55,534 nt of DNA from Candidatus Goldiibacteriota bacterium (lineage in GTDB: Bacteria; Oederibacteriota; JAAXVQ01): positions 1 to 55,534 of the forward strand of contig JAGVPM010000082.1 in the NCBI GenBank assembly GCA_020052235.1. Direction: 5' to 3'. Shown piece by piece: positions 25,899 through 49,139 of this stretch. Both the position numbers and the translations under genes were made by a program. The number at the start of each line of letters is the position of its first letter. Within the stretch, counting starts at the first letter, position 1. The notes beneath the pieces are model-generated. The model did no database searches and was not told the origin of the DNA. It worked only from the letters and a program-made list of their open reading frames with translations.

Positions 25899-28800
25899 TT
25901 ACGCCGAACCGGCCAGGGTGCGGATGACGCTCGGATCAGCGGGTTTCAGTTCCTGCCCTGAATCATCATACACCGGAAAATGATTCACCAGCTGATTGCG
26001 CAAGTGCGGATGATGCAGCACCAATTCCGGCACCCAATATGCAGGATAAGTTACCGTGTTCCCTGCGGATACGGCCAGGCGGATACGCACTTGCCGTTCA
26101 GGCGTGAACACGGACATGGCCTTGACCACGGCCAGTTGATAGGCGGCATCCGCACCGGGCTGTTGCATTTCCGCAAGCAGGGCCGTGAGCAGCCGCCGCT
26201 CCAAACGTTGCAGCCGCAACTGCTGCCGCGCGGCATCGGCGCCCTGCTCCGCGCTGCGGCTTAAAGCTTGAAGACGCGCCAAATTATTCGTCCACGAGGC
26301 ATTTTCCCAAAGATTGCGCAACAACAAGCCGCGTTCCCGGGGGGCCACCTGCGCTTCGGTTAGCTGCTGTTCCAATTGATATTTTAAATATGCCGCAGGC
26401 GCCAGTTCCAACCCGATATCGCCCAAACGTTCGGTTTCCCGGCGCAACGCGGCGGTTTCGCGCTGCAATGCATCCACCCAGGCCGATTTACCAAACCACG
26501 CCTTGAAAACCGGATTGCGGTTCAACGCAGCCTTAACCTCGGCCGCGGTCACGGGGTCCACCTCGCCTTGCACCATCAAGGTTCCGTTGGTGACCGCCCA
26601 CAGGGTCTGCGACACGGTCCAAAATTGTGAGTGCCGGACAATGGCCCACAGTTTTAATCCGTGCACTTCCGGTGCGCGGCCGAAAACTTTCTGCAGGAGC
26701 GAAACCTTGCGTGTCATGAAAATGCTTGCTGCCAACGCCAAATACAAACGGTTTCTTAAGCCCAGCGGTGCGCGCATGGCGGACGAGCCCTTAACTTCAA
26801 GCCTCAAACGCGCACCCGATTTTTTTCCTGCCGGCAATTCCTTGGCGGCATTGGCGCGCGCAGCATATTCCCAGGGCGTGGTTTCCGTGGATTGAATCCG
26901 GGCAATCGGCAAGGGCATCTGAATGCCGCTGCTCAACACTTGGTGTTCGGGGCCATAGGCCAGCTCGTCAAAAATTTGAGCTGCCGCATCGCGCAGTACC
27001 GCGTCCCGCGCTGAACGCGTTTGAGCTCCCAGAACCGAGACCCGTAACTCTTGCTGCAGCACTCCGGAATTGACCGCACGCTCTTCAACCTCTTCGGCCA
27101 ATTGATCTTCCTCCAGGGCCTTTTCTCCCAAGCCCGCCTGCAGCCATTCGGCTTCCTGACCCACCACAGTCCGGCCCGCGGCTGCGAACACGTTTTGCCA
27201 AGCATTCCAATCCACGGTTTTTTCCGCGGCAAATGCTGCGGTGGCCGGGGTCGTGGCCGACCCAAAAACATATACGCGTCCTTGCGAAATCAATTTCGCC
27301 CATCCGGCCAGCACCACAGGCGCGGTCAATTGATTTTGCCGGGTGAGAACCAACAGTCCAGGCGCCGGAGCCGCAACCGGAACTTGCCCCCCAAGCAGCG
27401 GAACAGCCTGCATTTGTTGCAGCACCTGCTTGGCTTGGTCATTTCCGGCTTTATTCAAACGGCTTAATTCCATATTAATGGCAGCCAACAACTCCGTATC
27501 ATCGGAATACAATTTTAGATTGCCGCGCTGGGTCTGAGGCAGCTGCGAAAAAATTTGCACGGCCTGACGCGCAATCCAATATGCGCGAACGTGCAGCGTT
27601 ATCTGCGAACGCAAGGTATTGGCCACGGTTTGCGGAACGGTGAGTTCCCCGGCCTTCGTGGTGTCCAACCGCAACACGGGGCGCAATAAATTCAATTGCA
27701 GCCAAGCGGCAAGCTCGGACGAACGCACGCTTCCGGCCTGGCGGCGCAGAATATCCCAAATACCGTTGAAACCCAAACGCGAACGCCAGACATCGCCCAC
27801 TATGCGCAGGGACGCTTGGCGCAGCCACGCCTCGGCCTGAACCATAGCGGGCATTCCCTGACGGGCGGCTGCGCCAGTGAAAACTTGGCGGAATGCCCAA
27901 GCCCGGATCCCAATGCCCGGACCCGAAACCTGGACTTGCCCCAAGGCCAATTCCCAAACCGCGTTGGGCGCCGGCGCCAGGAAAACCGCCCCCGGATATC
28001 CGGCTTGACCCAACAACAGGCGCGGATCCAAAATCCACAACGAACCCTGTTGTTGAATCAATAAATCGCCGGAGGCACGGGCAAAACGAATACGCCCTCC
28101 GCCTTGAATATGCTGCGTTAAAGCCTGCAGCACCATGCCGGAGGCCGTGGCCAGCAGCCGCTCCCAAGCCCGCAACCATTCCGGATCCGTGCTGTTGAAC
28201 TCCAACCGGCCTTGATTCAGCTTTACTTCCAGCGGTTCCCGGATGGAACTATTTTCCGATTTGGCTTGAAAATACGACTTGTATTCCTCCCATGTCGCGC
28301 GCACATGCCCTTGGCCGAAAGCCTCAAACACTTCATGGCGCAGAACCGCCACTTGCGCACCAAACGGCAGGGATAAAAAGCTTGCATGCAAACGCACCAA
28401 CGGCCGCCCCTCGCGGTCCTTCAGGCCTTGACCCACCAACACCCCCCGCAGCAGTGCGGATAACCAATTTTGACGCGGCAAGACCTCCACGCGCGGGCGC
28501 CGGTAACTTGCCGGCAATCCGCCCACACGTTCTATCTCCGCAAACACGCTGCGCAATAACGCCCCGGCCGCGTCACTATCCAGCTTGGGTGCCCGGCCTT
28601 GCCGCAGCCGCAGCCAATAATACAACCGTGGTGCGTAAATTACCGCCAACCCCAAACCCGACATCGCGCCCCACACCGATAGCGTGGTCAGGACGGCTGT
28701 GGGAGAAAACAAGCTTGAGACTATTGCGCCGATGGCGAGCGCAGCACCCGCAGCCATCACCGCGCGCAGGGGAGACACCCGCAATTCGTTCCCGGCAAAC

Positions 28801-31800
28801 GCCCACCGTTCGCGCAAAACTAAATCCGGGGTGGGAAGCGCCGGATACAGTAACCGGGTAACTCTCAGGTCCCGCCGGTTTAATCCATAGCGCCCGAACA
28901 TTTCATCCTCATACGCGAGTTCGCCGCCATATATGCTGAAATCTTCCATGGCCAAATTCTCAGCCGCACGAATGGTTTGCATGCCGGGTTTCATAGGAAA
29001 TTCGTAATGGGTGTCCTCGTAGAAAAAATGCACCCCCAGCGGGCGCATGCTGCCGTCGGCTTGTTTCTGATACAATACAAAACGCGCATACGGGACTTCA
29101 TTCTGCGTGGACGCGAATCCGTTCAGCAAATACCCGCCGGTTTCCAAATCTTGCCCCATGCGGTTAATAATCTGGGTTTCTTTGCCGGGGTTCATGTACA
29201 TGACATTGAAACACAATTTAATGCCAGCCGGGATATCCCGGCCGTATGAAGCGGTTTGAACCGTAAACCCATTTTTCAGGGCATAGGCCTGAATGGGATC
29301 GGGCGTCACCTCGATGTTTTGGTCCACGGCCAGGCCGTTCTGAAAATTAAAAAATTGCTCCCGGAACCGCGCCTGCACTGCCGGATTCTCAGCCTCGGCC
29401 AAAGGTTTTCCATCCTGGTGATACAGGCCGACGATCTCCCCGGCGGCATTGTGGTAGGCAAATACTCCGGTTGCAAAATCCCAGGTGCGGAATGCGGGAA
29501 GTAAAATATCCGCCCCGACCACGGAGTTATCCGGATTTATGGCTTTTACAATTTTGGTGAGTTCGGCCGTGGTAAACGGAACCGGGCCGCCCAACCCAAC
29601 ATCATTAATCACCACGCCGCCCGGGCGTTGCAAAAGTTGTTGAATGCCCTGATGCGCAAGCATAAAGCCATAGACACTTTTCAACCGCTGCGGCGAAGTG
29701 GTAAGCACCAAGCGTCCATTCCGGCGATTCGCCTTCAAATTGGCGGCAACTTCCCGTTGCAACGAAGGCGACAATCGCTCTTGAATGGCATTGAGTGTCT
29801 GCCACGCCGTGCGCGAAATGCGCGGATGGCCAAAACCATTAAACCGCATCAAGTCACGGGCAAAATTCTCCAATTGCTCCGGCGCTATTTCATCGGCCCG
29901 CAGTTCAATATTAACCATACCGCGGACATTCTCTGAGACATAACGCGAAAAAAGCAGCTGTGTTATGGCTTCCACCGGAACCGTTTGTGCGTGGTTGGCC
30001 GGAATCAAGGCCACTTCCCCGCGGCCGCCTTGGGTGAGCTCTGTTTCCTCCGGGTTATCCTGCGTGGGTGCATACGGTTTGCCCGCAAGTCGGCGCAACG
30101 GAGCCGGTGCTGTGGTGTTGAGCCACCACGCCAGGTAGAACGCGGTGACAGGAATATATTGCCCTAGAAAAATAACTTTTTGCAAAACTTTCCAAAATGC
30201 CGCAACGGCATTCTTTTTAAATACGTCCGCCAAATACGTCAGCGCCGACTGCACCCACGCGCGGTATTCCTGCCAAGTGGCTAACGCATGATTTGCGGTA
30301 TGGGCTTCAAAAATTTCATGAACCAGCACCGCGCGCTGAGCGGCCGGGGACAGGGAAAGAAAATTTTTATGCAACTGCACTACACCCAAGCGGCCTCGGC
30401 CTATTAAAATACCTTTCCCAAACATGGACCGCAGGGATTGTCCGGGCAATACCCTGAATAATGGACGCTGATACTTCGTCGGCAGGATGCCTTGCCTTTC
30501 AATATCCACAATCACGTTGAGCAACTGACGTTCAATTTCCCAAGGATGCAAGGCCGGTGCGCGCGGACGCGACACAGACCAAACATACCACAATCGCGGC
30601 ATAAAGCTGAGCGCCAAACCCAGCCCGGAAACAGCGCCTGCAATGGACAATGTGGTCAGGGAAACAGTAGAGCCAAGCGTGGTGGAAAACAACCCTGCCG
30701 CACCCACCACCGCCGCAAACACCGCCCCCCAGCGCGCCAAGGAAAACCGCAGCTCGCCCTTGCCCGGTTGATCCGAACGCCGGAAGAAAACCCGCATCCA
30801 GTCATTGTCAATTAATTGCTCAACCGGAATAGCCGGCGTTGGGGCAACCACGTCATTGGTGTCGGCCGATTTCAAAACGCCGGTTTTCAATTTTTCGTCT
30901 TGAAGCAAAACGGGTTCCACGGCTTGCGGTGTTCCATTTTTTTGGAGCGAAATGCCCACCACGTCCGAACTGCCCTCGCGGGACTTGTGATAGATCAATG
31001 TGGCCTGAAACTGCGGATTATCCGCCGTGATTTCCCGGATAGTTTTTATGGCCTGCTCGCTGTCCAGCGGAGCAAACTCGTTTGAATATTCAGGCGGCAT
31101 GAAATGCATATATACAATGCGGCCGCCATCCGGGAGCAACTCCCAAGCGCGGACCAAATAGTATAGGTTGTTGTATTTCATGCGTTCGTCTACGTTTGTT
31201 AATTGAATCGGACCGTACATCCCCATGAAACGAAACATATTGAAAAATACCAACACGGAAGGAAATGCTCTCAGCTTGGCGTCGTCCTGAAGCTGAATCG
31301 GAAATTTTTCATTAAAAAAATCAGCTCTGTACACTTCCTGGCCATCCTGGGCAAAGAAATCACTATCCATCAGGTTGTCAATGTTCAAAACGCGATAGCC
31401 TTGCGCCAGCAACGGATTCCGGCCAGAGCCCACGTTTAAAACAACCGCATCTCGGGGAACATTCAGGGCACGCAGGACCGTGCCGAGATTCTGCGATGCT
31501 TCCCGCCAGTAATTCTCTCCGCGATGTTTCGTCAGCTCAACTTCAATCTTGGCTGGATTGCCGGGCTGTCCTTCCTCCCGAATTGATTTTCCGCCATACA
31601 TCGGACCCGGCACAATCTTCATATCTCCGGCTACCAGAAAACCCCAACTCAGTTCCAACTTTTTCCCCAAAAACCAGTAGACCAGTACCAAACCCACCCC
31701 GGCGCCTGCCAAAATCATCCGCGGATTTTCGCGAACCCATTGGACCAGGCGAAGCAAAGCAGGACGCATCTGAATTTGGGGACGGTCTATGGTTCCGGCG

Positions 31801-34800
31801 TGCGTCTGTTCCTGAAGCCGTGCCTGTACCCAGCCCGTTAAGCCCTTTCGAAAAAGGCCGATATTCAAAAGCGTGCTGAACCGTATCCCCTCAGCCGATT
31901 CAGCCGTCCCTGCTTGCCGCTTCAGGGCCATCCCCTGGCGCAGGGCAGTATCCAGGCTCTGCACTGAAACAGCCCACAAGGCTTCCAGCGCCTCAGGCCG
32001 GCTTTGGTGCCACCAGCCCTCGCGGACCCACGTATCGATCACCAAACCCATGGCCGTTTGCACCGCGGCCAAGCGGCCGGCAAGATTTTCGTTTTCTTCC
32101 CAGGGACTCTGCGCCTGCACCACGGCGGCTTGCGTATACAGTTGCAGAATAGCGGCGGCTTTCTGCTGCGCGGTTTCTCCCAGGGATATATGCAGCTCCG
32201 GCACGCCCGCGGTCAAGGCCGCACTGGCGACTTCGCGTGCTTCAAATTGTTTCAACAACTGCCGCGCAAACTCCCGCAGCGGCAAACTTGCCGCTTGTGC
32301 CGGATCCGCCAAGCGTTGCAGCCATTTATGCCACCGGGCAACGGCCCGGGGCGCGGAGGCAACCTGGACGGTTATTTGCGCCAAATCGGCAGTGGTTAAA
32401 ATACCCTGTTGCCACCGTTGTTCCAGCCGGCTTTCCCACTCCGGCTTATCCAATGTTTCGGCCATGGCCAGCGGCAGCCCTTGCGCCAAGCGGAGCCGGT
32501 CTAAGTCTTGAGCAAAAATATTTCCGGTTTGTGCGAATTGATTGGCCGTGGGATCAAAAATCCATTCTGCCCCAGTCCGGGCATCCGTAACTTTTAGGAA
32601 AAAATGGTTCACTTCCCAACCGCGGCTCGCATGCCGGAGCAGCGTCACCCGATGCCCCTGAGCCGTTAGGGCTTGGTAGGCAGCCAGCGACGCCCAGTGA
32701 CAAACGTTCTCGCCATACCCCTGAAGATAAAATATCGCATTGGTGGCCGCATAAATCTCCCGGCACTGCGCCAATAAACCAATGCCCTGCAAGCGGCCTT
32801 CCAGCATTTTTTGAATACGGCTTAATCCCGGAACCGTATGCTCATTCACCAAAACCCGCGGCACAACCGCGGCATCTTGATAAAATGTATGCACCATGGC
32901 ATTGCCGGGATCCAATTGCGGCGTGCGGATCAACACATACGGTTCGTTGGCCAGAAAAAACACATCTTCCCCGTAGGCATCCAGCATGGATTCCGGGCGA
33001 GTGTCTTGCACTGCATTGGCCAATAAAGCATTCCGATTTTCCCGCCAGCGCCTGACCAATCCCGTACCCAGTGCCCAGGATTGCATCCCAGCCCATACGG
33101 TTTGCACTATTTCCTGCCAGCGGGGCCGAACCCGTTCCCGCAAGCCGGCAGCCAAAGCCGGAGTCAACGTTACATTGTATAATGACAGTTCCGCCTGATC
33201 CTGATGGTAGGTATAAAAAGGCACTGTCGGGGAATTTTTCCACGCTCCGGAAACAGCCGTGATGCGGAATAATTTTTCTCCGGCTTCCAAAATTAACGGT
33301 ACGGCTTTTTTCGCTGCATCCTTTTGCCAAGCATCCCAATCCACCCGGATGCGATAGGGTGAGCCTTGATTCAAAATTTGCAGCAACGCTTCAACCCGCG
33401 ATCGGAAACCGGACGCGTTCCGGCCTTGGGCCAGCAAAGGTGTCACTTGGGCCAGATATAATGCCCCGAAAGCTTGCCAAAAATCCTGATGCTCAGGGCG
33501 CAACTCCAATACCGAGGACAGAGCCAGCAAATGTTTTTCCGGCGGAGCAAACAAAGACCGGAAAGGCCCGAACTCTCCGGACAGTTGCCGAAAATAATGC
33601 CCGGAATCCTGACAGGAACGTATGTTGGGCCGCACGGTTAAACGCGAAATCCCGCGCGCTTTCAATTCCGCGTCAATCCCGGAGGTATGAAAACCGCCTG
33701 CCACCAGCACCGCGCGGTCAGTTTTGTAAACCTTCATGGCCCGCAACGTGTTTTCCACCAAAATCCGATTGCGCTTTTCAGCCAGTGTATAAAATTCCAG
33801 TGCTTCCTGCAGGCGCATATCCAAGTCATACAATTTTGGTTCTACCTCGGCCGTCACTCCCAATACGGATGCCTGATCTTGGTAAAAATCCAAAAACGCC
33901 TTAATGCTGAAACGCAGCCCTTGGCCGCGCGCATACGCCAGATCATCCTGAAACGCCGCGATATTCAGCAGCCGCTCCATGCGGTCCAAATCCTCGCGCC
34001 AGCGGTCAAGGGCCGCTTGCTGCGCCGGGTGTGAATACAATTTTGTTCGGATGGCCTGACGCAGGCGCTGGGTCTTAACTTCCACCTCGTGGGCTTCCCA
34101 GTCGGATTTGGCGTCCAATTCCGCCGCTTCCGGATATTCGGAAACATTGACCCGGACCGCCTGCGCGCGTGCTTTTAAAAACCGGAGATACACCGGCAGG
34201 GAAATTTTCTGTTCTTGAAACGCCTCAAGCTTTTCGTCCAGTTCCGCCAATTCTTCGGTATTCACCGCCCCCAGCAATTCTTCCAGCAGGTAACGGACAT
34301 TTTGAAACTGATTTTGCACTTTTTGCCATAAAAAACCCCGGACCATGCCCAGCGAACGTTCATATATTTCCGCATCTTCCACGCCATACAGTACAACACT
34401 TTCCTGAGAGGAAATCGCTGCTGCTTCGGTTCCCGAAAGTTGTCCGCTCTGCCTGAAGTAACTGAATAAGCGCTTTTTAATATCCGGATACGGCAGCTGC
34501 CGCAAGCGGTCAATATCCAAAAATCCCACTGACCCTTCAACCGCTACCAGGCGAATTTTATTTTGTTGAATGAATTGGGTAATAAGCTGTTGAATTTTTT
34601 CTTGAGCTTCGCTATTGGAATGCAAGTCTTCCACGTGAATAATGCCGGGAGGCTGTTCTTTATTTTCGCGTTTCAAATTGCGCCAATCAAATGCCCAGGA
34701 AAGTTCCGGCATAATAAAAATCACGGATAATATAACCGCCATGATCCGGAAAAAAGTGCGCCGTGTAACTTCATTCCAGCCTAAAAAATAATGAAAAACT

Positions 34801-34805
34801 AACAT
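25899..34805 (-). CDS. Giant multidomain membrane-associated protein (2,968 aa)
   Basis: One uninterrupted frame, ATG behind AAGGA. An N-terminal membrane or signal segment (about residues 18-38) leads to a TraB/ChaN-like region (about 50-390), with HVEDLH at 57-62, VAVEGS (E90) and GGFH (H373). A transglutaminase-like domain follows at about 690-760 with C702, H734 and D751 in the right order and spacing. After helical filler comes one membrane helix (about 1030-1048). A Rossmann methyltransferase-like domain (about 1100-1290) has LNVGSGRNP. A first module has two membrane helices (about 1362-1402) and HEIFEAHTANH (from H1496). A second methyltransferase-like region (about 1700-1960) has VINDVGLGGP. 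A second copy of the module has two helices (about 2012-2050) and HEVFEAFGQGH (from H2157). The last 750 residues are Gln/Ala-rich and not recognised. The function is unknown; a membrane-tethered protein-modifying factory is one reading. Its neighbours are a cyclase-like protein and a PorV-OmpA fusion. Confidence 0.9.
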   Translation of the reverse strand: MLVFHYFLGWNEVTRRTFFRIMAVILSVIFIMPELSWAFDWRNLKRENKEQPPGIIHVEDLHSNSEAQEKIQQLITQFIQQNKIRLVAVEGSVGFLDIDRLRQLPYPDIKKRLFSYFRQSGQLSGTEAAAISSQESVVLYGVEDAEIYERSLGMVRGFLWQKVQNQFQNVRYLLEELLGAVNTEELAELDEKLEAFQEQKISLPVYLRFLKARAQAVRVNVSEYPEAAELDAKSDWEAHEVEVKTQRLRQAIRTKLYSHPAQQAALDRWREDLDRMERLLNIAAFQDDLAYARGQGLRFSIKAFLDFYQDQASVLGVTAEVEPKLYDLDMRLQEALEFYTLAEKRNRILVENTLRAMKVYKTDRAVLVAGGFHTSGIDAELKARGISRLTVRPNIRSCQDSGHYFRQLSGEFGPFRSLFAPPEKHLLALSSVLELRPEHQDFWQAFGALYLAQVTPLLAQGRNASGFRSRVEALLQILNQGSPYRIRVDWDAWQKDAAKKAVPLILEAGEKLFRITAVSGAWKNSPTVPFYTYHQDQAELSLYNVTLTPALAAGLRERVRPRWQEIVQTVWAGMQSWALGTGLVRRWRENRNALLANAVQDTRPESMLDAYGEDVFFLANEPYVLIRTPQLDPGNAMVHTFYQDAAVVPRVLVNEHTVPGLSRIQKMLEGRLQGIGLLAQCREIYAATNAIFYLQGYGENVCHWASLAAYQALTAQGHRVTLLRHASRGWEVNHFFLKVTDARTGAEWIFDPTANQFAQTGNIFAQDLDRLRLAQGLPLAMAETLDKPEWESRLEQRWQQGILTTADLAQITVQVASAPRAVARWHKWLQRLADPAQAASLPLREFARQLLKQFEAREVASAALTAGVPELHISLGETAQQKAAAILQLYTQAAVVQAQSPWEENENLAGRLAAVQTAMGLVIDTWVREGWWHQSRPEALEALWAVSVQSLDTALRQGMALKRQAGTAESAEGIRFSTLLNIGLFRKGLTGWVQARLQEQTHAGTIDRPQIQMRPALLRLVQWVRENPRMILAGAGVGLVLVYWFLGKKLELSWGFLVAGDMKIVPGPMYGGKSIREEGQPGNPAKIEVELTKHRGENYWREASQNLGTVLRALNVPRDAVVLNVGSGRNPLLAQGYRVLNIDNLMDSDFFAQDGQEVYRADFFNEKFPIQLQDDAKLRAFPSVLVFFNMFRFMGMYGPIQLTNVDERMKYNNLYYLVRAWELLPDGGRIVYMHFMPPEYSNEFAPLDSEQAIKTIREITADNPQFQATLIYHKSREGSSDVVGISLQKNGTPQAVEPVLLQDEKLKTGVLKSADTNDVVAPTPAIPVEQLIDNDWMRVFFRRSDQPGKGELRFSLARWGAVFAAVVGAAGLFSTTLGSTVSLTTLSIAGAVSGLGLALSFMPRLWYVWSVSRPRAPALHPWEIERQLLNVIVDIERQGILPTKYQRPLFRVLPGQSLRSMFGKGILIGRGRLGVVQLHKNFLSLSPAAQRAVLVHEIFEAHTANHALATWQEYRAWVQSALTYLADVFKKNAVAAFWKVLQKVIFLGQYIPVTAFYLAWWLNTTAPAPLRRLAGKPYAPTQDNPEETELTQGGRGEVALIPANHAQTVPVEAITQLLFSRYVSENVRGMVNIELRADEIAPEQLENFARDLMRFNGFGHPRISRTAWQTLNAIQERLSPSLQREVAANLKANRRNGRLVLTTSPQRLKSVYGFMLAHQGIQQLLQRPGGVVINDVGLGGPVPFTTAELTKIVKAINPDNSVVGADILLPAFRTWDFATGVFAYHNAAGEIVGLYHQDGKPLAEAENPAVQARFREQFFNFQNGLAVDQNIEVTPDPIQAYALKNGFTVQTASYGRDIPAGIKLCFNVMYMNPGKETQIINRMGQDLETGGYLLNGFASTQNEVPYARFVLYQKQADGSMRPLGVHFFYEDTHYEFPMKPGMQTIRAAENLAMEDFSIYGGELAYEDEMFGRYGLNRRDLRVTRLLYPALPTPDLVLRERWAFAGNELRVSPLRAVMAAGAALAIGAIVSSLFSPTAVLTTLSVWGAMSGLGLAVIYAPRLYYWLRLRQGRAPKLDSDAAGALLRSVFAEIERVGGLPASYRRPRVEVLPRQNWLSALLRGVLVGQGLKDREGRPLVRLHASFLSLPFGAQVAVLRHEVFEAFGQGHVRATWEEYKSYFQAKSENSSIREPLEVKLNQGRLEFNSTDPEWLRAWERLLATASGMVLQALTQHIQGGGRIRFARASGDLLIQQQGSLWILDPRLLLGQAGYPGAVFLAPAPNAVWELALGQVQVSGPGIGIRAWAFRQVFTGAAARQGMPAMVQAEAWLRQASLRIVGDVWRSRLGFNGIWDILRRQAGSVRSSELAAWLQLNLLRPVLRLDTTKAGELTVPQTVANTLRSQITLHVRAYWIARQAVQIFSQLPQTQRGNLKLYSDDTELLAAINMELSRLNKAGNDQAKQVLQQMQAVPLLGGQVPVAAPAPGLLVLTRQNQLTAPVVLAGWAKLISQGRVYVFGSATTPATAAFAAEKTVDWNAWQNVFAAAGRTVVGQEAEWLQAGLGEKALEEDQLAEEVEERAVNSGVLQQELRVSVLGAQTRSARDAVLRDAAAQIFDELAYGPEHQVLSSGIQMPLPIARIQSTETTPWEYAARANAAKELPAGKKSGARLRLEVKGSSAMRAPLGLRNRLYLALAASIFMTRKVSLLQKVFGRAPEVHGLKLWAIVRHSQFWTVSQTLWAVTNGTLMVQGEVDPVTAAEVKAALNRNPVFKAWFGKSAWVDALQRETAALRRETERLGDIGLELAPAAYLKYQLEQQLTEAQVAPRERGLLLRNLWENASWTNNLARLQALSRSAEQGADAARQQLRLQRLERRLLTALLAEMQQPGADAAYQLAVVKAMSVFTPERQVRIRLAVSAGNTVTYPAYWVPELVLHHPHLRNQLVNHFPVYDDSGQELKPADPSVIRTLAGSA

Positions 34806-34820
34806 ATTTCATCCTTAAAC

Positions 34821-34848
34821 GTAGGGAACAGGCATGCCTGTTCCCTAC
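34821..34848. repeat. Perfect 28-bp palindrome upstream of the giant gene
   Basis: Each 14-base arm reads GTAGGGAACAGGCA on its own strand, with no spacer. It lies 16 bp before the giant gene start, in the short gap after the cyclase-like gene. It could act on readthrough or mRNA stability between the two. Confidence 0.8.
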
Positions 34849-34904: not shown

Positions 34905-37331
34905 CTATTCCTGAGAGGTACCAAAAAGTTTATCAACCACTGAATACGGAAGGATGATTTCATATAGGTGACAGGGCTTGGAAATTCCTTTCAAAGCAAC
35001 AGTTTCCTGAATATCTCTTAAAATTATACGTTTATTTAAAAGCGTGTCATAATAGTACAAAAATTTTTCTTTTTCAAATTGTTTTTCGTTTTGATTAATA
35101 TTTTTAATATGAACTTCCGATTGCAACCGCTCAAAAACATCATCTGTCATCGCAATGCCACAGTTGAATAATTTCTTATCCCAGGCAAATACATTAAATG
35201 GAAACGGTTGGGCCAAATTTTCTTCAATGTATTTTTTCACTACATCGGAAGAACCCGAAAGCCGCGCGGATTGCGTTAATGCCGGGGAAATAACAATAGG
35301 ACATTTCGGCCGGTCATCGGACCCCACCATGGCTACGAATAATTCGCCGCAGGTCAACCCTACACCCACATCCACCCGGGGCATGCAATAATCGCCGGCA
35401 ATTTTTACCAGTGTCTTCATCAAAAAAACTTCAGCGATCGATACCGTATCCATTGCGGCCAACTCCCGCAAAAATACCATAACCTCCGGAGTGATTGCCT
35501 TCCCGCCCCAAGCGCTCAGGACTTTGGCCAAGGCTTTGGGTTTTAACCAAGGAACGCTTAAGGCTTTCGCCTCCAGGTACATGGCTTTAACCTTACGCCG
35601 GTGCTCATCGGATGATTGAGCCCGCAATTGTGTAAACCGCCCGGCAAGATTATACGCCGCCCGGATGGCATCCATGGACTTATGGTAGTGCGCGGCATAC
35701 CCGTCCCCGGCAAAATAAATCCGTTCCCCCTGGCAAGCTTGCGCCTCAAAATCCACAGCCGTGAGATACGGGGTTAAAAACGACGCAGTATCTTTGGTAA
35801 GCTTCATGGTGGTTTCCGTGGAATTGCGCAAATCCGCGAACAAAAAAGCGCTCCGGCGCCTGCGTTCCTGGGTGCCGGGATAAATATCGCCTTGGGCGCG
35901 GCAAAGATATAAATTGCCCTCGGTATAAGCATTGTCCATTTCCAGCTTCATACGGTCCCAAAGCGGCGTGCACGCGAGACGATCATGCTCGTCGTCCGGA
36001 CTTTCGGAATAATTCAACTCATATCCGCGCCAGAGTTTAACCCCGTTCCACCCCACGCTTTTATGGCTCACGCGGGCATACCGTGAACGTATCCGCTGGA
36101 AATTCCGGTACTGGAATAAAAAATCCGTCCAGCGTCCCAACGAGCGCTGCAGCACTTCGCTTAATTCCGCGCGTGAAAGCCTCCCCAGCCAGCGGCGGCG
36201 GCTGCGCTGCAGAAAATGTTTTGCATCTCCCAATATTTCCTGCGCGGGTTTGGCTAACTCCTTATGCCTGAGTTTCAACTGCTTGATGAACCGCCGGCGG
36301 GTTGGAGCATTTTTTAAAAAATCTTCTAAAAACCGATTCGAGCCCAGGCTGCCTGCGCTTTCAGAATCGGCTTGCGTGCCGAGTTTTTGCCTAAACCAGG
36401 TGCGCACCTGTTCACAGGCGATTTCCAAGACCAACTGCTCACGAAAGAGCCGTTCGCGCCGGATCCAGGTTAATAGCCGCTTGCGCTCGGGAATATGCTC
36501 CCATAAACGGCCTAACGTCTGTGGGTCAGCGAAGCCGGCGTCAATGCTGGTACATTCGAACCACCGTCCGGCTTTAAAAAACTCGTTAAAAAAATCCAGC
36601 CACGCCGTATAGGTACGCAGGGATATCCGGTACGGATTTAACCCGTGCAGCAAACGTTCCGGTGTCAGCTCATCGGCCGGTCCCGGCCAACACAAGGTCC
36701 AGGGATTAATTAAGCGCAACACCTCGGGATTGGCGTCCGGCGCGCCGAATTTTTCCTTGCGCCAACGCGCCAGATCAGCGTGGGATTCGGCGGCGGTCAG
36801 GGCCAGAGCCAGGCACCTGCCCAGTGTCATCCGCAGTTGCCACGCCGTGCTCCGGTCCAAGGAAATATTTTTTTCAAAATACTCATGAATAACATCGGCG
36901 ATTAAAAGCACGGCCAACTGCGCAACCCAGACATTCAAATTCGGAATATCGGTTTCGCGCTCCTGCCGAACCGCATTGCAGCGCAGGCGCCGGTAGGCAT
37001 CCGCCACGGCTCCGATCTCATTGGCCTGCCATTGCTGAAATGCCTGGGGCGACATGCGGGGCGTAACGCACCATTGATCATAAAAAAAATCCTGCAGCGC
37101 GGAATCGCGCCAGTTCGAAACCGGACCGGGCTGCGGTTCCGGGTCATGCACCAATTGCACCAGCCTCCGGACAGCGTGAAACACAATAGCTTCCAACCCG
37201 TCCGGCTCCCCGTCTGCGGGAGGAAACGCCGCCTGGTGAAACCGGGTTTGGCCTCCGTAATTCACTTCCGAAGGTTTATGTTCGAACACGGCTATGTCGC
37301 CGAGTTCCGGAAGCGCTTGTTTGGTGCGCAT
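34905..37331 (-). CDS. Divergent class III nucleotidyl cyclase-like protein
   Basis: 808 aa. About 480 N-terminal residues are helical and unrecognised. A cyclase homology domain follows: FADLRNST with metal ligand D500, FAGDGYAAHY with D543, and VGVGLTCGELFVAMVGS at about 650. About 75 extra residues sit between the second and third blocks. The usual VNxAAR block reads LTQSAR, so the transition-state Asn is replaced by Thr while the Arg stays; activity is therefore uncertain. No signal peptide is seen. The ATG at 37331 follows GAGGTGA and lies 13 bp after the TPR lipoprotein gene. Confidence 0.72.
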   Translation of the reverse strand: MRTKQALPELGDIAVFEHKPSEVNYGGQTRFHQAAFPPADGEPDGLEAIVFHAVRRLVQLVHDPEPQPGPVSNWRDSALQDFFYDQWCVTPRMSPQAFQQWQANEIGAVADAYRRLRCNAVRQERETDIPNLNVWVAQLAVLLIADVIHEYFEKNISLDRSTAWQLRMTLGRCLALALTAAESHADLARWRKEKFGAPDANPEVLRLINPWTLCWPGPADELTPERLLHGLNPYRISLRTYTAWLDFFNEFFKAGRWFECTSIDAGFADPQTLGRLWEHIPERKRLLTWIRRERLFREQLVLEIACEQVRTWFRQKLGTQADSESAGSLGSNRFLEDFLKNAPTRRRFIKQLKLRHKELAKPAQEILGDAKHFLQRSRRRWLGRLSRAELSEVLQRSLGRWTDFLFQYRNFQRIRSRYARVSHKSVGWNGVKLWRGYELNYSESPDDEHDRLACTPLWDRMKLEMDNAYTEGNLYLCRAQGDIYPGTQERRRRSAFLFADLRNSTETTMKLTKDTASFLTPYLTAVDFEAQACQGERIYFAGDGYAAHYHKSMDAIRAAYNLAGRFTQLRAQSSDEHRRKVKAMYLEAKALSVPWLKPKALAKVLSAWGGKAITPEVMVFLRELAAMDTVSIAEVFLMKTLVKIAGDYCMPRVDVGVGLTCGELFVAMVGSDDRPKCPIVISPALTQSARLSGSSDVVKKYIEENLAQPFPFNVFAWDKKLFNCGIAMTDDVFERLQSEVHIKNINQNEKQFEKEKFLYYYDTLLNKRIILRDIQETVALKGISKPCHLYEIILPYSVVDKLFGTSQE

Positions 37332-37344
37332 ACTCACCTCGTGA

Positions 37345-38634
37345 TTATTTCGTCTCCTGCTCCACCCGCTGGATATTGGCCCGGGCTTTGGGGTGTTCAG
37401 GATCCAATTCCAAAGTTTCCGTCCATGCGGCCAAGGCTTCGTCCAATTCCCCGCGTTGATATGCCGCCAAACCATCTTCGTAGCGCACTTGCGCAGCGCG
37501 GCGTTTTTTTTCCACGGATTCAGTTAATTCTTTTTTAGCGCGCAACAGTTGCCCGCGAATGCCCGCATCCTGGGGGTCCGCGGCCGCCGCGGCTTCCCAA
37601 GCGCTGATGGCCGCAGGCAAATTGCCTTTGTGATAAGCTTCCACACCTCGGTTGTAAAGCTTCTGGGCCTCGGCCTTGGTGCCCTGAGACTTCCTTTGCG
37701 TTTCCAAACCGGCGCGCACGCTTTTGACTCCACTTAAAGCATCGGCGTTTTCAGGGAAAATCGCTAATACTTTTTCAAAGCTTGCCAAGGCAGCGTTCGT
37801 TTTTCCATTCGCCAAATCCCGGTTGGCCTGATCCAGAATTCGGCTTACGATGTTATCAACTTCCCGCCGTGTCCGCGCCGCGCCGTCGGCCGCACCCTCG
37901 GGCAACGGCTGCATGCGTTGTGCCTCCAGCCAGGCTTGGTAGGCTTTCACCCACTCTTGGGCACGTTCCGCGTCCCGGGCTTGCGCCACCAAAATTTGCG
38001 CCTGGGCCAGATCCTTCAACTTCGCCAATTCCCGGCGCGTTTTTTCCAAATATTTTTTAACTTGCACTTGCTCGGAATTCAACTTGGCGGCTTCTGAAAA
38101 CTTAATTTCCGCGCCATCCCATTCCTTTTTACGGTACAACTTCATACCTTCCTGATAAAGGTTTTCGGTCATCCGGTCAAAAACGCGCCGGGCATCGGGC
38201 TGATACCGCTCTTCCGCCATGCGATTTAATCCTTCTTGGGCCGGAACGTGTTGCGGGTCGAGCACCAATATTTGTTTATACATCAATTCAGCTTCTTTCA
38301 ACTGACTGGCTTGGTAAAGCCGCTCGGCTTGACAATAGTCCGCATTTACCCTTTGGCCCAGATCGCCTTCCGGCAATGCCATGGCTTCGGATCCGGTGCC
38401 CGGATTTTCGGCCTTGTGGATTTTCTGCGCCAACTCCTGCCGGGATGGGTCCAATTTCAACGCCAGGCGCCATTCAGCCACGGCTTCGGCAACCCGCCCT
38501 CGTTGAAAAATTTCTTCGCCCTTGGCCGCATGCCTGCCTGCGGCGCGCGCCTGATTTTCGCTTAAGCTTGCACACCCCGATAAGTTCAATGACCCTGCCA
38601 GAGCCAGCACCAATGCTATTGCCGCGCACTTCAT
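37345..38634 (-). CDS. TPR-repeat lipoprotein
   Basis: 429 aa. Lipoprotein signal with box LSGC. Several TPR units follow (AEWRLALKLDPS, YKQILVLDPQHVPAQ, AWEAAAAADPQDA, AWTETLELDPEHPKA) separated by charged helices. It is probably a periplasmic scaffold on the inner or outer membrane. AGGAGG lies six bases before the ATG. It directly precedes the cyclase-like gene and is probably cotranscribed with it. Confidence 0.85.
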   Translation of the reverse strand: MKCAAIALVLALAGSLNLSGCASLSENQARAAGRHAAKGEEIFQRGRVAEAVAEWRLALKLDPSRQELAQKIHKAENPGTGSEAMALPEGDLGQRVNADYCQAERLYQASQLKEAELMYKQILVLDPQHVPAQEGLNRMAEERYQPDARRVFDRMTENLYQEGMKLYRKKEWDGAEIKFSEAAKLNSEQVQVKKYLEKTRRELAKLKDLAQAQILVAQARDAERAQEWVKAYQAWLEAQRMQPLPEGAADGAARTRREVDNIVSRILDQANRDLANGKTNAALASFEKVLAIFPENADALSGVKSVRAGLETQRKSQGTKAEAQKLYNRGVEAYHKGNLPAAISAWEAAAAADPQDAGIRGQLLRAKKELTESVEKKRRAAQVRYEDGLAAYQRGELDEALAAWTETLELDPEHPKARANIQRVEQETK

Positions 38635-44701: not shown

Positions 44702-46273
44702 TCAGCGCAGCAAAAATACAGTGGCGCTGAAATGTTGATTTTCTGTCTCGATCCGGCAGGCATAGACACCGCCTTCGCAAAGCATGCCTTGCGCATTTTT
44801 TCCATCCCAGTCCAACGTATCATTTAATGTAATAACGCATCTGCCTTTGAGGTTGAATATTTTAATTTTCAAGGATGCATACGAACTATTTTGCGGACAA
44901 TTAAAATGCGCTTTTTGGCCACGAACCGGTGCGAAAGGATTGGGGGTTATGACCCACCGCGATGTCCCGGCACCGGCCAATGGAGTTAGCGTCGCCGTTG
45001 TACTCGCTGATTCCGTGGACGATGGCGTGGGGGAGAGCAACGGCGGGGTCTGCGTGCTCGTTGGTGTTAGGGTGGCTGTTTGGGTAATCGTGGCCGTGGG
45101 GGTGGGCGTTAAATAGTGTTGCACATATATTTGATATTTCGCGCTGGTTTGATCCTTCTCTTGCCAAGTAAGATATAAAGTATTCCCCATAAAAGCAATA
45201 TAAGCAGACAACGCATCCTGAGTTGAAACTTTATTTAAACTTCCGCCCAGTAAATTCCAAACAGACCCATTAAAAACCGCGGCATATATTTGGCCTGCAG
45301 TACCGGCATTTTCAGCCCATGAAGAATACAAAACATCGTTATAAAAGGCCAACATAGGCCTTTGGGCATTTACATTACTATTTACATTTAGCGCTGATCC
45401 ATCCTGAGCCCAACCGGCTCCATCATAATGCTTCACACAGGCAAGCAACGTTGTGCCGGATGCTTCTAAAAAAGAAACATACGGCGTACCGGAGGAATTT
45501 AATGCAAGGGAAGGCCACTGCGCATCCGCGTTCGTATTATTATTAAGGCTGCCTCCCACCGCCTGCCAATCGGTTCCATTAAAATATTTCACATAAACCT
45601 GCCTGATCGTACCTTCGGTCCACGCTACATACGGCGTGCCATTAAACATGCGCAAATCCGGGTCTGTGGCATTTTCGTTTTCATTAATATTCAAATAATT
45701 GCCATCTTGTTGCCACGAGGCTCCATTCCAATGTTTGACAATCACTTTGCAGGCTACTCCGGCGGCAAATTCATACCATGAAACATACGGCGTAATGTTG
45801 TTAAATTGTATATCCGACCGCCAAGCCACGCCTGTGTTGCCATATATATTTAGGTTGCCGCCCACGGATGCCCAAGCAGCTCCAATATAATTTTTCACAT
45901 TAACTTGATAATAACTATTTGTGGAATTAGTTGATTCGGTCCATACCACATGCGGCGTGGTATTATCAACAGCGATTCCCGGCATCCTCGCATCGCGGTT
46001 GCCGTCCATATTCAGGCTTCCGCCCACCAAATCCCAGCTTGATCCATTAAGTCTTTTTACATATATATTGGAAGTATTGCCATACATTTCCCGCCAGGTC
46101 ACCCAGGCCGCATAAGGTTCGCTCTTCGAAAAAGCCATCGCCGCCACATAGGCATTCTCATTTTGATTGAAATTCAGACTATCCCCGTCTTGCATCCATC
46201 CGGCCCAGGATGGTTGGCTGGTTAGGATCAAGGCCATCGCCGCCAGTGCCAGCCGCACTAAGCAGGCGTTCAT
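44702..46273 (-). CDS. Secreted repeat (propeller-like) protein with Thr/Pro linker and FlgD-like tail
   Basis: 523 aa. Signal peptide, then about six repeats of some 58 residues built on the pattern W..DG..LN.N.N.NA..P.....GTPYVAW.E....VYVK..NG, suggesting a propeller. A Thr/Pro/Ser-rich linker (about 380-425) and a C-terminal Ig-like domain with ITPNPFAP, IFNLKGRCV and LDWDGKN follow. The tail is of the FlgD / sorting-domain type. Its ATG overlaps the stop of the upstream gene (ATGA), so both are made together. Ligand unknown; a surface adhesin or binding protein is likely. Confidence 0.78.
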   Translation of the reverse strand: MNACLVRLALAAMALILTSQPSWAGWMQDGDSLNFNQNENAYVAAMAFSKSEPYAAWVTWREMYGNTSNIYVKRLNGSSWDLVGGSLNMDGNRDARMPGIAVDNTTPHVVWTESTNSTNSYYQVNVKNYIGAAWASVGGNLNIYGNTGVAWRSDIQFNNITPYVSWYEFAAGVACKVIVKHWNGASWQQDGNYLNINENENATDPDLRMFNGTPYVAWTEGTIRQVYVKYFNGTDWQAVGGSLNNNTNADAQWPSLALNSSGTPYVSFLEASGTTLLACVKHYDGAGWAQDGSALNVNSNVNAQRPMLAFYNDVLYSSWAENAGTAGQIYAAVFNGSVWNLLGGSLNKVSTQDALSAYIAFMGNTLYLTWQEKDQTSAKYQIYVQHYLTPTPTATITQTATLTPTSTQTPPLLSPTPSSTESASTTATLTPLAGAGTSRWVITPNPFAPVRGQKAHFNCPQNSSYASLKIKIFNLKGRCVITLNDTLDWDGKNAQGMLCEGGVYACRIETENQHFSATVFLLR

Positions 46274-46908
46274 GGGGCCAGCGCAAACTTGACCCGCCGC
46301 ACGCTGCGCCCATCGACTTTCAAATGTGCCAGATAAATGCCTGGTGCCATGCCGCGGCAATTCCAGGCCACCACGTGGGGTTCGGCCGTGGGATGGCTGA
46401 CGCGCACATTGGCAATGTGCTCACCGTATACGTTGTAGACATCGACTTCGCTGCTCAAACCGGCAGGCAGGATGAATTTGACCTGCTCATGCGCGGGATT
46501 GGGGAAAGCCGTGCCTTCCCACGCCGATAAATTGTTGTGTGCGTCCAAGGCCGTGGCTGTGCTCGTCGGCGTGGCCGTGGGCACCAAGGTCGCGGTTTCC
46601 GAAGCGTGCGGCGTGGCCGTGGTGGTGATCGTACTGCTTAACGTGACTGTCGGCGTGGGCGTAAATGTAGGTGTCACCGTAGCGGTGAGCGTGATTGTTC
46701 CCGAAGGCGTAACCGTGCCGGACTGGGTAGCTGTCAAGGTTTGCGTCGCTGTCGGCGAATACGTGGGAGTCATGGTAACGGTGCGTGTAATCGTGGGCGA
46801 AGCAGTCCGGCTGGGCGTGGCTGTAACAGTTGAAGTAACTGTTGGGCTTACCGAAGGGGTGGGTGTAGATGTGAACGTCACGGTAGTGCTGGACGTTGGG
46901 GATGGGGG
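46270..46908 (-). pseudogene. 3' part of the beta-helix protein gene, out of frame: Thr/Pro linker and FlgD-like tail
   Basis: About 212 codons. A Thr/Pro/Ser/Val-rich linker of about 115 residues is followed by FPNPAHEQVKF, VDVYNVYGEH, AWNCRGMAPGIY and LKVDG, a FlgD-like C-terminal domain. It has no start or signal of its own. Its frame joins that of 46878-49139 if the C7 run at 46904-46910 (minus strand) had eight Cs. With that change one protein of about 965 residues results, with the same design as its neighbour. Confidence 0.7.
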
Positions 46909-49139
46909 GGACTGACCAGCGCATTTAAGCTGAACCCCGATGTGCTGCCGTCGGCATTGGTGGCCGTGGCACAAATATAATCCCCGTATTGCAGGCCCGT
47001 GCATGCAATAGCCCAATTGCCCGTGCCGCCGGCCGCGCCCTCGCCGACGCAACGCAGACTGCCGCCATTTACCCCCGCGCCCCGGTCGGAAACAAAAATT
47101 TGAATCCGGTCATTGTTGCCTGATGTGCCTTGAACCAAACTCAAGCCCGCGCTTTGAATGACCGGGACGGCTTTGCTTTCATTGGCTCCGCTCAGCAGTT
47201 GAATGCCTTGGCCCGAGAAGGCGCAAATGGTATTGGTCCAAAAGGAATTACGGATGCACGTGTTGTTGCCCACCGTGATGCCGTTGTTCGTACCAGCCAT
47301 AAGGTTGCCCGGTCCGCCCGCGGGTTGGCCAAAAAGATTATCCCTGGAGGTAGTGGTCACGAAAACCGCGTACGTAAAATTAGGCGTCGTGGGGACGCCG
47401 GTGGCCAGTACGCCAATCCAGTTGGCCGTGCAGGTGTTGTTGCTGCTGTTGCTGAGATAAATTCCCGAGAGTGTTCCGCCGGTGCCGCCACAAATGACAT
47501 TACCGCCCGATGAAGTGCCGCCGATGGTGGTGTACGCGGCATTGCCGATATAGAGGGCGTGCATTTGATTGGTTAAAAGTGAAGTCCCGGCCTGATTGGT
47601 GCCAAGGTAGTTGCCAAAAATCTGATTACCCGTGCCGCCGGTCAGGGCAATACCGTATTGCGTGTTTCCGGCAATCACATTGCGCGAGCCGGGATCCGGG
47701 CCTCCGATGGTGGTGTTCGTGCAATTGTTGGCATACAGCCCGGAATAACCGTTGGGCAAGGCGGCATTACCCGCGGCATTAAGCCCGATCCGGTTGCCTA
47801 AAATTTGATTGTCGCTCAACGGATTGGAAAAAAACCATTTATCCATGACAATGCCGTAGTTATTGTTTCCCGAGATCAGGTTGCCGAACTGTCCTCCGGT
47901 GTTGGCTCCTCCCACGCAATTGCCCCAGCCGCCGCCCAAATTGATCCCATTGCCGTTGGGCGCAGCCCCACTGCCGTCTACTAAGGTTCCGACGTAGTTT
48001 CCGGCCAGCGTGTTGCCATACCCATCTTCCAGGTAAATGCCATTATCCGTATTCCCGGATATAATGTTGCCCTGATTCGCATTACGGTCTCCGCCGATCA
48101 GATTGTTGCCGGCATGGTATAAATAAATGCCCGAACCATTCGGCCAAAGCGTATTGTCGGGGCCAATCCCCACATAATTATTTTGCACGGAATTCCAACG
48201 AGGCGTGGGCTCGCTGTTGACATTGCCCGAGAGGATGATGCCTTTGCCGGAATTGCGTCCCACAATATTTTCGCATCCGGTTGTGGTCAAGCCGATGAAA
48301 TTGCCTTTGGCGCCGTATAGCTCGATGCCTTTATAGTTGGCGGCCGCAGCACTCAAATCCGGTAGCATGCCCACGATATTACCGCAGACAGTATTGCCCC
48401 AGGCCGTGGAATCCACGTAAAACCCGCGGTCGCTATTGCCCCCGAGCACATTGCCTTCGCCGGCCAGGCGGTTGCCGCCGAACATCGTCTGGGTCGTTCC
48501 GTAATCAGCATCAATGCCGATGTTGTTGGCGATCACGCCCAGGCCCGTGGAGTTGATTCCAAAATAATTCCCGCGGATCGTGCAGCGGAAAACGCTCACG
48601 GTTTGCAAACCAATGGCATTGCCGGAGAAAATATTGCGCTCCGCCGGGGTAGTGCCGCCAACATCATTGAACGAACCATGCAGGGTCATCCCATAATAAT
48701 TGGTCAAGCCGCCGGTATCGTACCAGTCCGTGCCGAACCTGCAGCCGTATATACGGTTGCACGATGTGAAAACTTCCAGTCCAATGGCATCAAATCCCGA
48801 GGCAAGAATAAAAGCCAGACCGGTTACAGTGCTTCCTTGGCTGGCGCTCACCAAACGGAGCAGGTTGTTGCCGGAAAGCACCACCTGGCCGAAGCCGTCT
48901 AAAAGCAAAGGATCACTCACGGAAATCACCCCGCTGGTGATGGTGATGCACATAGGTCCTGAAAATATAATCGTATCCGGACCCAGGTTGGCGTTGGCCA
49001 AAGTGACTTGATCGCGCAAAGACCCGGCACCGCTGTCCGCATCCGTGGTGACCGTATATGTGGCGGCTTGCGCCGCCCACGCGCTCCCCAAACAAATCAT
49101 ACTCAAAAGCAGCAAACGCAACCCGGAGCTCATTTTCAT
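46878..49139 (-). CDS. Secreted right-handed beta-helix protein, frameshifted near its 3' end
   Basis: 753 aa as read. Signal peptide, then TYTVTTDADSGAGSLRDQ, the common opening of CSLREA/polymorphic-outer-membrane-type beta-helices, and many coils with NVI.GN...GI.L...GN.I.GN.IG. It ends with a short junk tail after LVSPPHP because a C7 run shifts the frame; the Thr/Pro linker and sorting-type tail continue in the next frame (46270-46908). The ATG at 49139 follows GGAGAT; earlier in-frame ATGs are weaker. Likely surface-exposed. Confidence 0.8.
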   Translation of the reverse strand: MKMSSGLRLLLLSMICLGSAWAAQAATYTVTTDADSGAGSLRDQVTLANANLGPDTIIFSGPMCITITSGVISVSDPLLLDGFGQVVLSGNNLLRLVSASQGSTVTGLAFILASGFDAIGLEVFTSCNRIYGCRFGTDWYDTGGLTNYYGMTLHGSFNDVGGTTPAERNIFSGNAIGLQTVSVFRCTIRGNYFGINSTGLGVIANNIGIDADYGTTQTMFGGNRLAGEGNVLGGNSDRGFYVDSTAWGNTVCGNIVGMLPDLSAAAANYKGIELYGAKGNFIGLTTTGCENIVGRNSGKGIILSGNVNSEPTPRWNSVQNNYVGIGPDNTLWPNGSGIYLYHAGNNLIGGDRNANQGNIISGNTDNGIYLEDGYGNTLAGNYVGTLVDGSGAAPNGNGINLGGGWGNCVGGANTGGQFGNLISGNNNYGIVMDKWFFSNPLSDNQILGNRIGLNAAGNAALPNGYSGLYANNCTNTTIGGPDPGSRNVIAGNTQYGIALTGGTGNQIFGNYLGTNQAGTSLLTNQMHALYIGNAAYTTIGGTSSGGNVICGGTGGTLSGIYLSNSSNNTCTANWIGVLATGVPTTPNFTYAVFVTTTSRDNLFGQPAGGPGNLMAGTNNGITVGNNTCIRNSFWTNTICAFSGQGIQLLSGANESKAVPVIQSAGLSLVQGTSGNNDRIQIFVSDRGAGVNGGSLRCVGEGAAGGTGNWAIACTGLQYGDYICATATNADGSTSGFSLNALVSPPHPQRPALP
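46904..46910 (-). other. C7 homopolymer at the frameshift
   Basis: Seven Gs on the plus strand (Cs in the coding strand) exactly where the two reading frames meet. One extra C restores a single long frame. It may be a sequencing or assembly error, or a slippage-prone phase-variation tract. Confidence 0.75.

Follow-up and report, generated by a model that had tools for sequence, protein, structure and literature searches.

The window analyzed here is a 55,534-nucleotide stretch of DNA from Candidatus Goldiibacteriota bacterium (contig JAGVPM010000082.1, positions 1 to 55,534; coordinates below are those of the window unless a locus is named), and its minus strand contains a giant open reading frame (ORF) at 25899..34805 that begins with an ATG at 34805, has one terminal stop and encodes a protein of 2,968 residues (P0001). 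An earlier reading by a model that saw only the letters and their ORFs, referred to here as the original prediction, had proposed that a frame open for 8.9 kb with a good ribosome site (the strand was not stated) encodes a membrane protein joining TraB/ChaN-like, transglutaminase-like, and methyltransferase-like domains in an order known from no described protein. The frame is indeed open over this whole interval and is preceded by the ribosome site AAGGA (34812..34816, minus strand), 6 nt before the ATG. The plus strand across 25899-34805 contains many stops, in shuffles of its bases the longest open run averages 153 codons and never exceeds 267, and the GC content by codon position is coding-like throughout. 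What the sequence of one locus could not reveal, and what is the main point of this analysis, is that the protein belongs to a large family of giants in which the head stays constant while the tails are shuffled.

The protein begins with a predicted signal peptide (residues 1-39, 34689..34805, minus strand), which ends in PELSWAF where the usual family form is PYLTWAF. Six hydrophobic segments are found, the signal peptide at residue 21 and five more, in agreement with the proposed minimum of five membrane helices; one predicted helix spans residues 1030-1048 (31662..31718, minus strand). The motifs on which the original prediction was based are all present, namely HVEDLH (residue 57), VAVEGS (87), GGFH (370), GSGRNP (1126), HEIFE (1496), and HEVFE (2157), as is the Cys-His-Asp set, and the whole protein contains only four cysteines. 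The entire protein, used as a query against Pfam, NCBIfam, and PDB sequences, gave no useful match, and within the literature and database searches made here no described protein has this order of domains.

A family of giants with a constant head

More than 100 homologs of the N-terminus of the giant were found. Ten other ORFs in the source genome carry its first ∼430 residues at ∼26-36% identity, and a head profile recovers 11 copies in that genome and between 8 and 32 copies in each of the eight genomes of its order (8/8), where the records of the relatives are named candidate division FCPU426 or Candidatus Firestonebacteria. Outside the order, 37 genomes of the phylum searched with this profile yielded nothing beyond one weak match. 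More distant heads, with a signal peptide in front and large ORFs behind them, are found in records named Endomicrobium, Endomicrobiales, and Elusimicrobia, using a contig scan with one peptide pattern that heads in other phyla may escape. In the phylum of one Elusimicrobia relative, heads are present in 41 of the 150 genomes sampled (E ≤ 1e-25), the largest head-bearing ORF in this Elusimicrobiota sample having 12,027 residues. Complete members carry the signal peptide and, based on these sequence comparisons, the family very probably has a common plan in which the signal peptide is followed by a constant head of ∼380 residues and then by a tail of up to ∼12,000 residues.

The giants also occur in other arrangements. 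In a related genome three head-bearing giants lie in tandem on one contig (L067:366-19814). A giant of ∼2.1-2.4 thousand residues with a divergent head occurs about once per genome (L049:7565-13978 on G000:C140, with counterparts in G001-G007); in several genomes it lies directly behind another giant (G001:C100, G002:C44, G004:C36, and G006:C297), and several of these divergent-head giants share a C-terminal domain with the 2,968-residue protein.

The head domain

The head (residues 50-430, 33516..34658, minus strand) is predicted to be a hydrolase domain of the TIKI/erythromycin-esterase (Ere) type. Five of its residues, D60, H62, E90, R345, and H373, are invariant across 78 aligned heads, and four of these, D60, H62, E90, and H373, provide the two histidines and two acidic residues of the TIKI/Ere catalytic set, with Asp in place of one Glu. 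The corresponding residues are E47, H50, E78, and H289 in EreC, E3900, H3902, E3930, R4001, and H4030 in VvRRSP, and H85 and E113 in BcR135 (PMC6254334, PMC7979712). The spacing of 28 between His and Glu is the same in all four (H62-E90 in the head, H50-E78 in EreC, H85-E113 in BcR135, and H3902-E3930 in VvRRSP), and the distance from the Arg to the last His is 28 in the head (R345-H373) and 29 in VvRRSP. An AlphaFold2 model of the head (predicted local distance difference test score, pLDDT, 86.7; predicted template modeling score, pTM, 0.85) is confident and is built of strands and helices, including a helical insert similar to the minor lobe of EreC. Its best folds in the PDB are EreC, twice, and BcR135, although these matches are weak (E 0.027-0.049, probability 0.63-0.84, template modeling score, TM-score, ∼0.2).

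The head therefore resembles members of the superfamily that includes EreC, BcR135, the VvRRSP domain, HopBA1, and ChaN (PMC7979712, PMC6254334) in having an acid-x-His motif as in VvRRSP, a Glu 28 residues later and a C-terminal Arg and His, but it differs from them in the Asp that replaces the first Glu, in its constant N-terminal position on giants predicted to be exported and in lacking any match to the TraB and ChaN families of Pfam. Pfam TraB (PF01963) was absent from the matches listed (25 of 33 families) for 39 heads at E ≤ 1; its profile matches control proteins and nothing in the genomes examined, and a comparison by hhalign with three TraB proteins gave a probability of 0.3%. The ChaN profile (PF04187) likewise does not appear among the matches listed for these 39 heads, with the qualification that it matched only 1 of 14 controls, below the cut-off. 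Hence the proposed TraB/ChaN-like assignment stands at the level of the superfamily and not at that of the two Pfam families. The residue set, its spacing and the structure model together make it probable that the head is an intact hydrolase of the TIKI/Ere superfamily.

Mosaic tails

Where the head ends, the similarity between family members ends also. Among 66 pairs of giants with heads at least 55% identical, the matching region ends before residue 700 in 61, with a median end at residue 482, and the median aligned share of the remaining tail is 0%. Tails differ between paralogs even at 60-80% head identity, and the same modules occupy different positions in different giants. In the source genome the tails contain methyltransferases, Nudix, LOG, GDE_C, GH77, GH26, HD-GYP, helix-turn-helix, and cytidylate kinase modules, and in the Elusimicrobiota relatives AAA, starch synthase, Maf, methyltransferase, and other domains. 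By eye, the motifs are intact in LOG (PGGFGT), HD-GYP (HHEWLDGKGYP), GH26, Nudix, and the methyltransferases. Enzymes of carbohydrate and glycogen metabolism (GDE_C, GH77, GH26, starch synthase, UDPGP, and CBM48) recur as tail modules in both lineages (L048:1806-18788, L043:347-19999, and Elusimicrobiota loci).

Comparison of giants that are orthologous or closely related gives ratios of nonsynonymous to synonymous substitution (dN/dS) of 0.13-0.21 for heads and 0.12-0.50 for tails, values obtained from other giants of the family as the 2,968-residue protein has no close ortholog. The tails are therefore under purifying selection.

Tail modules of the 2,968-residue giant

The first recognizable region of its tail (residues 655-800, 32406..32843, minus strand) contains a Cys-His-Asp triad in the expected order (C702, H734, and D751), and its presumed nucleophile, C702, is one of the only four cysteines of the protein. 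This motif suggests a papain- or transglutaminase-like domain, as had been proposed, but the region has no profile match beyond a weak hint of PF15645 (E 0.078), and no homolog was found in its own phylum or among 150 genomes from the phylum of the Elusimicrobia relatives, the latter search having been run without a positive control.

The proposed methyltransferase-like character is supported and extends to two domains. The GSGRNP motif belongs to domain 1 (residues 1083-1277, 30975..31559, minus strand; motifs VLNVGSGRNP, LNIDN, and PDGGRIVYMH), which is methyltransferase-like by its motifs; it has no significant Pfam or PDB match, and its sole homolog, in a giant of a related genome, conserves these motifs. 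Domain 2 (residues 1596-1985, 28851..30020, minus strand) was missed by the original prediction. A structure model of residues 1590-2190 is of moderate confidence (pLDDT 68.8, pTM 0.42), and the fold search for domain 2 gave as its top 38 PDB matches methyltransferases dependent on S-adenosylmethionine (SAM) or close relatives of their fold. The best of these is a CheR structure (5y4r_B, E 4.9e-4, probability 0.99), with CheR structures ranked 1, 3, and 5, and a profile comparison ties the domain to a segment of L050 that bears a Pfam CheR match. Assignment of domain 2 as a CheR-like methyltransferase is thus supported by modeling; it shares the Rossmann-type methyltransferase fold with the CheR-type enzymes but is located inside a giant that bears a signal peptide and lacks their chemotaxis context. 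Comparison of slices with known folds, a check that the original prediction had suggested, accordingly leads to methyltransferases for domain 2 and, weakly, to EreC and BcR135 for the head.

The two HExFE motifs are located in two copies of a recurrent module, termed module A, found in several giants and consisting of a transmembrane hairpin and an HExxE...H domain (copy 1, residues 1352-1517, 30255..30752; copy 2, residues 2008-2179, 28269..28784, both minus strand). The HExxE...H pattern is enriched over shuffled sequences (17 versus 0-3) and is lost in some copies of the module. Identification of module A as a zincin metallopeptidase was considered and rejected, as the HExxH motif is absent. 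The source genome also encodes a 3,085-residue giant that has no head and contains two copies of module A resembling those described here (L051:9577-18834). Residues 2190-2850 (26256..28238, minus strand) have no homolog among the giants compared, and the tail is completed by a domain (residues 2858-2955, 25941..26234, minus strand) that matches the C-termini of other complete giants and ends 13 residues before the stop.

Location of the tails

Cysteine makes up 0.119% of tail residues in the source genome versus 1.11% in its other ORFs, and in the other groups compared the tails are depleted ∼2-6 fold (for G004 and G005 the comparison is with just three other ORFs each). This depletion is the best evidence on location and suggests that the tails work in, or travel through, a compartment outside the cytoplasm, although it does not distinguish between the periplasm, the cell surface, and another cell. 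We consider action outside the cytoplasm to be likely. The original prediction had suggested that the protein could modify or cross-link proteins of the envelope, a role that no result obtained here favors over others outside the cytoplasm.

Genomic neighborhood

The genes that flank the giant are ordinary (phosphofructokinase, PdxA, KsgA, an OmpA-type protein, and a ComEC-type protein), and an ORF of 856 residues upstream of it (34905-37475) has no Pfam match. Just upstream of the giant is a palindrome, GTAGGGAAC...GTTCCCTAC (34821-34848), which is present in 46 copies in the genome versus none in the control reading; copies also adjoin giants on contigs C72 and C144, and the palindrome beside giants may be an aid to recombination. 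Elsewhere in the window (44702-47052), two ORFs have weak matches to C-terminal sorting domains of the type IX secretion system (Por_Secre_tail and CHU_C), a possible export route in the source organism.

Discussion

From the family, the head residues, the mosaicism, the purifying selection, and the cysteine depletion described above we infer a model for export, catalysis, processing, delivery, and target in which these proteins are recombination-diversified, exported multi-effector giants that act on other cells or on the cell exterior. The giant would be exported by Sec via its signal peptide, and outside the cytoplasm its head would act as a protease or esterase that processes the giant itself or a target. 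The tail would be drawn from a shuffled repertoire of enzyme-like modules and membrane hairpins, and in some giants, including the 2,968-residue protein, it ends in the common C-terminal domain; being poor in cysteine, it might act outside the cell or pass into another cell, such as a host protist, prey or a competitor, where its methyltransferase and protease-like modules could modify components of the recipient. Many paralogs combined with tail recombination would then provide a changing effector repertoire. We assign the whole model a probability of about 0.45. Several points weigh against it. The fold match of the head is weak (best E 0.027, TM-score 0.21), at least one tail enzyme, a cytidylate kinase without a proper P-loop, is degenerate, the positive-inside charge of the first helix behind the head does not discriminate between topologies, and neither a secretion system nor a target was identified. 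In addition, methyltransferases need SAM, which would be available to a Sec-exported protein only within another cell or after re-entry of the chain into the cytoplasm.

Re-entry is what would be expected if the giants were instead membrane-tethered cytoplasmic multi-enzymes, in which a periplasmic head serves as a sensor or hydrolase, the helices return the tail to the cytoplasm and the methyltransferase, Nudix, HD-GYP, and helix-turn-helix modules serve the cell's own metabolism or signaling. The tail enzymes are of cytoplasmic type, some of them requiring SAM or nucleotides, and a hydrophobic segment lies within 350 residues after the head in 68 of 89 giants. The charge bias of the first helix, however, does not favor re-entry, many of the segments are hairpins, and the strong depletion of cysteine in the tails, compared with the remaining proteins of these genomes, argues against a cytoplasmic location, and hence we regard this explanation as serious but unlikely. 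The degenerate kinase, together with the large amount of tail sequence that has no match at all, would fit if the giants are scaffold, adhesion, or coat proteins of the surface or periplasm that were built from captured genes and have mostly lost their enzymatic functions, such that size and hairpins outweigh catalysis, and giant genes of Omnitrophota are proposed as coats or adhesins where they are discussed in PMC10066038. This too seems unlikely, given that the catalytic motifs of the LOG, HD-GYP, GH26, Nudix, and methyltransferase modules are intact, that the catalytic set of the head is invariant and that no adhesin domain is among the Pfam matches listed for the order (25 of 52 families).

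A constant head and abrupt tail replacement are also features of classical polymorphic toxins used in kin competition, in which a delivery head is followed by a variable toxin tail and an immunity gene lies downstream. Inspection of 24 giant 3′ ends (three with little sequence beyond) found no recurrent small, immunity-like gene, the neighbors being housekeeping genes or another giant. This weighs against a kin-competition version of the model proposed above but not against host-directed effectors. Moreover, the diversity is spread over thousands of residues rather than confined to a single C-terminal toxin domain, and in some giants the C-terminus is conserved, so that classical polymorphic toxins are an improbable explanation. 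Least credible is that the giants arise by assembly or frameshift fusion of separate genes. The source genome is a draft assembly of 200 contigs, and many giants are interrupted by the end of a contig, but the 8.9-kb frame is single and open, homologs of its N-terminus, C-terminus, and internal modules are found in other giants, including those of independently assembled genomes, and relatives are under purifying selection. An artifact is thus very improbable.

The model of exported multi-effector giants has partial precedents. MARTX-type toxins exchange modules, as the giants do. They also carry several enzymatic effector domains, including a TIKI-type hydrolase (PMC6254334), in one exported giant chain, but the giants differ from them in their signal peptide of the Sec type, in the use of a TIKI-type domain as constant head and in the presence of 8-32 paralogs per genome; neither RTX repeats nor an autoprocessing domain turned up in the Pfam lists of the giants, although no search was aimed at either. 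Polymorphic toxin systems (PMC3482391) similarly have a constant N-terminal part and tails replaced by recombination, while in the giants there is no downstream immunity gene, the diversity is internal and multi-module and the C-terminus is common to some. Giant genes and huge proteins are already known in Omnitrophota and Elusimicrobiota (PMC10066038, PMC11573180, PMC12057145). In the accounts available there, Elusimicrobiota and some related phyla are enriched in huge proteins, no COG was assigned to those of Elusimicrobiota (PMC11573180), and what the giant ORFs of Omnitrophota do is called poorly understood (PMC10066038). These giants resemble the ones described here in being ORFs of thousands of residues with predicted membrane helices in related or host-associated lineages, but the common head, the mosaic build, and the defined enzyme modules are not described in the portions of the three papers that deal with them; the West-Roberts 2023 preprint on giant genes, which these papers cite, may have priority.

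While giants of these lineages were thus already known, the common head and the mosaic build appear to be the new part, and a new class of system is a possibility. It would be a delivery or polyprotein system in which a Sec-exported TIKI-type hydrolase forms the universal front of giant chains. Such chains would take up ordinary enzymes of many kinds, have them processed outside the cytoplasm and bring them to bear on other cells, and the uncharacterized huge proteins of Elusimicrobiota and FCPU426/Firestonebacteria would largely be that one system, a proposal that we consider speculative and on balance doubtful. The investment in these proteins is large, as head-bearing giants account for ∼3% of the source genome and ∼9% of the genome of a relative. 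The genus Endomicrobium, to which the isolate Endomicrobium proavitum belongs (PMC4505116), includes intracellular symbionts of termite-gut flagellates, and since some head-bearing relatives are in records of that name, a role in host interaction can be examined there. Whether the head is a protease or an esterase, whether the chain processes itself and where the tails finally reside become testable questions, and the common head, the shuffled stock of tail modules, and the cysteine signature offer a starting point for explaining the huge proteins of these bacteria.

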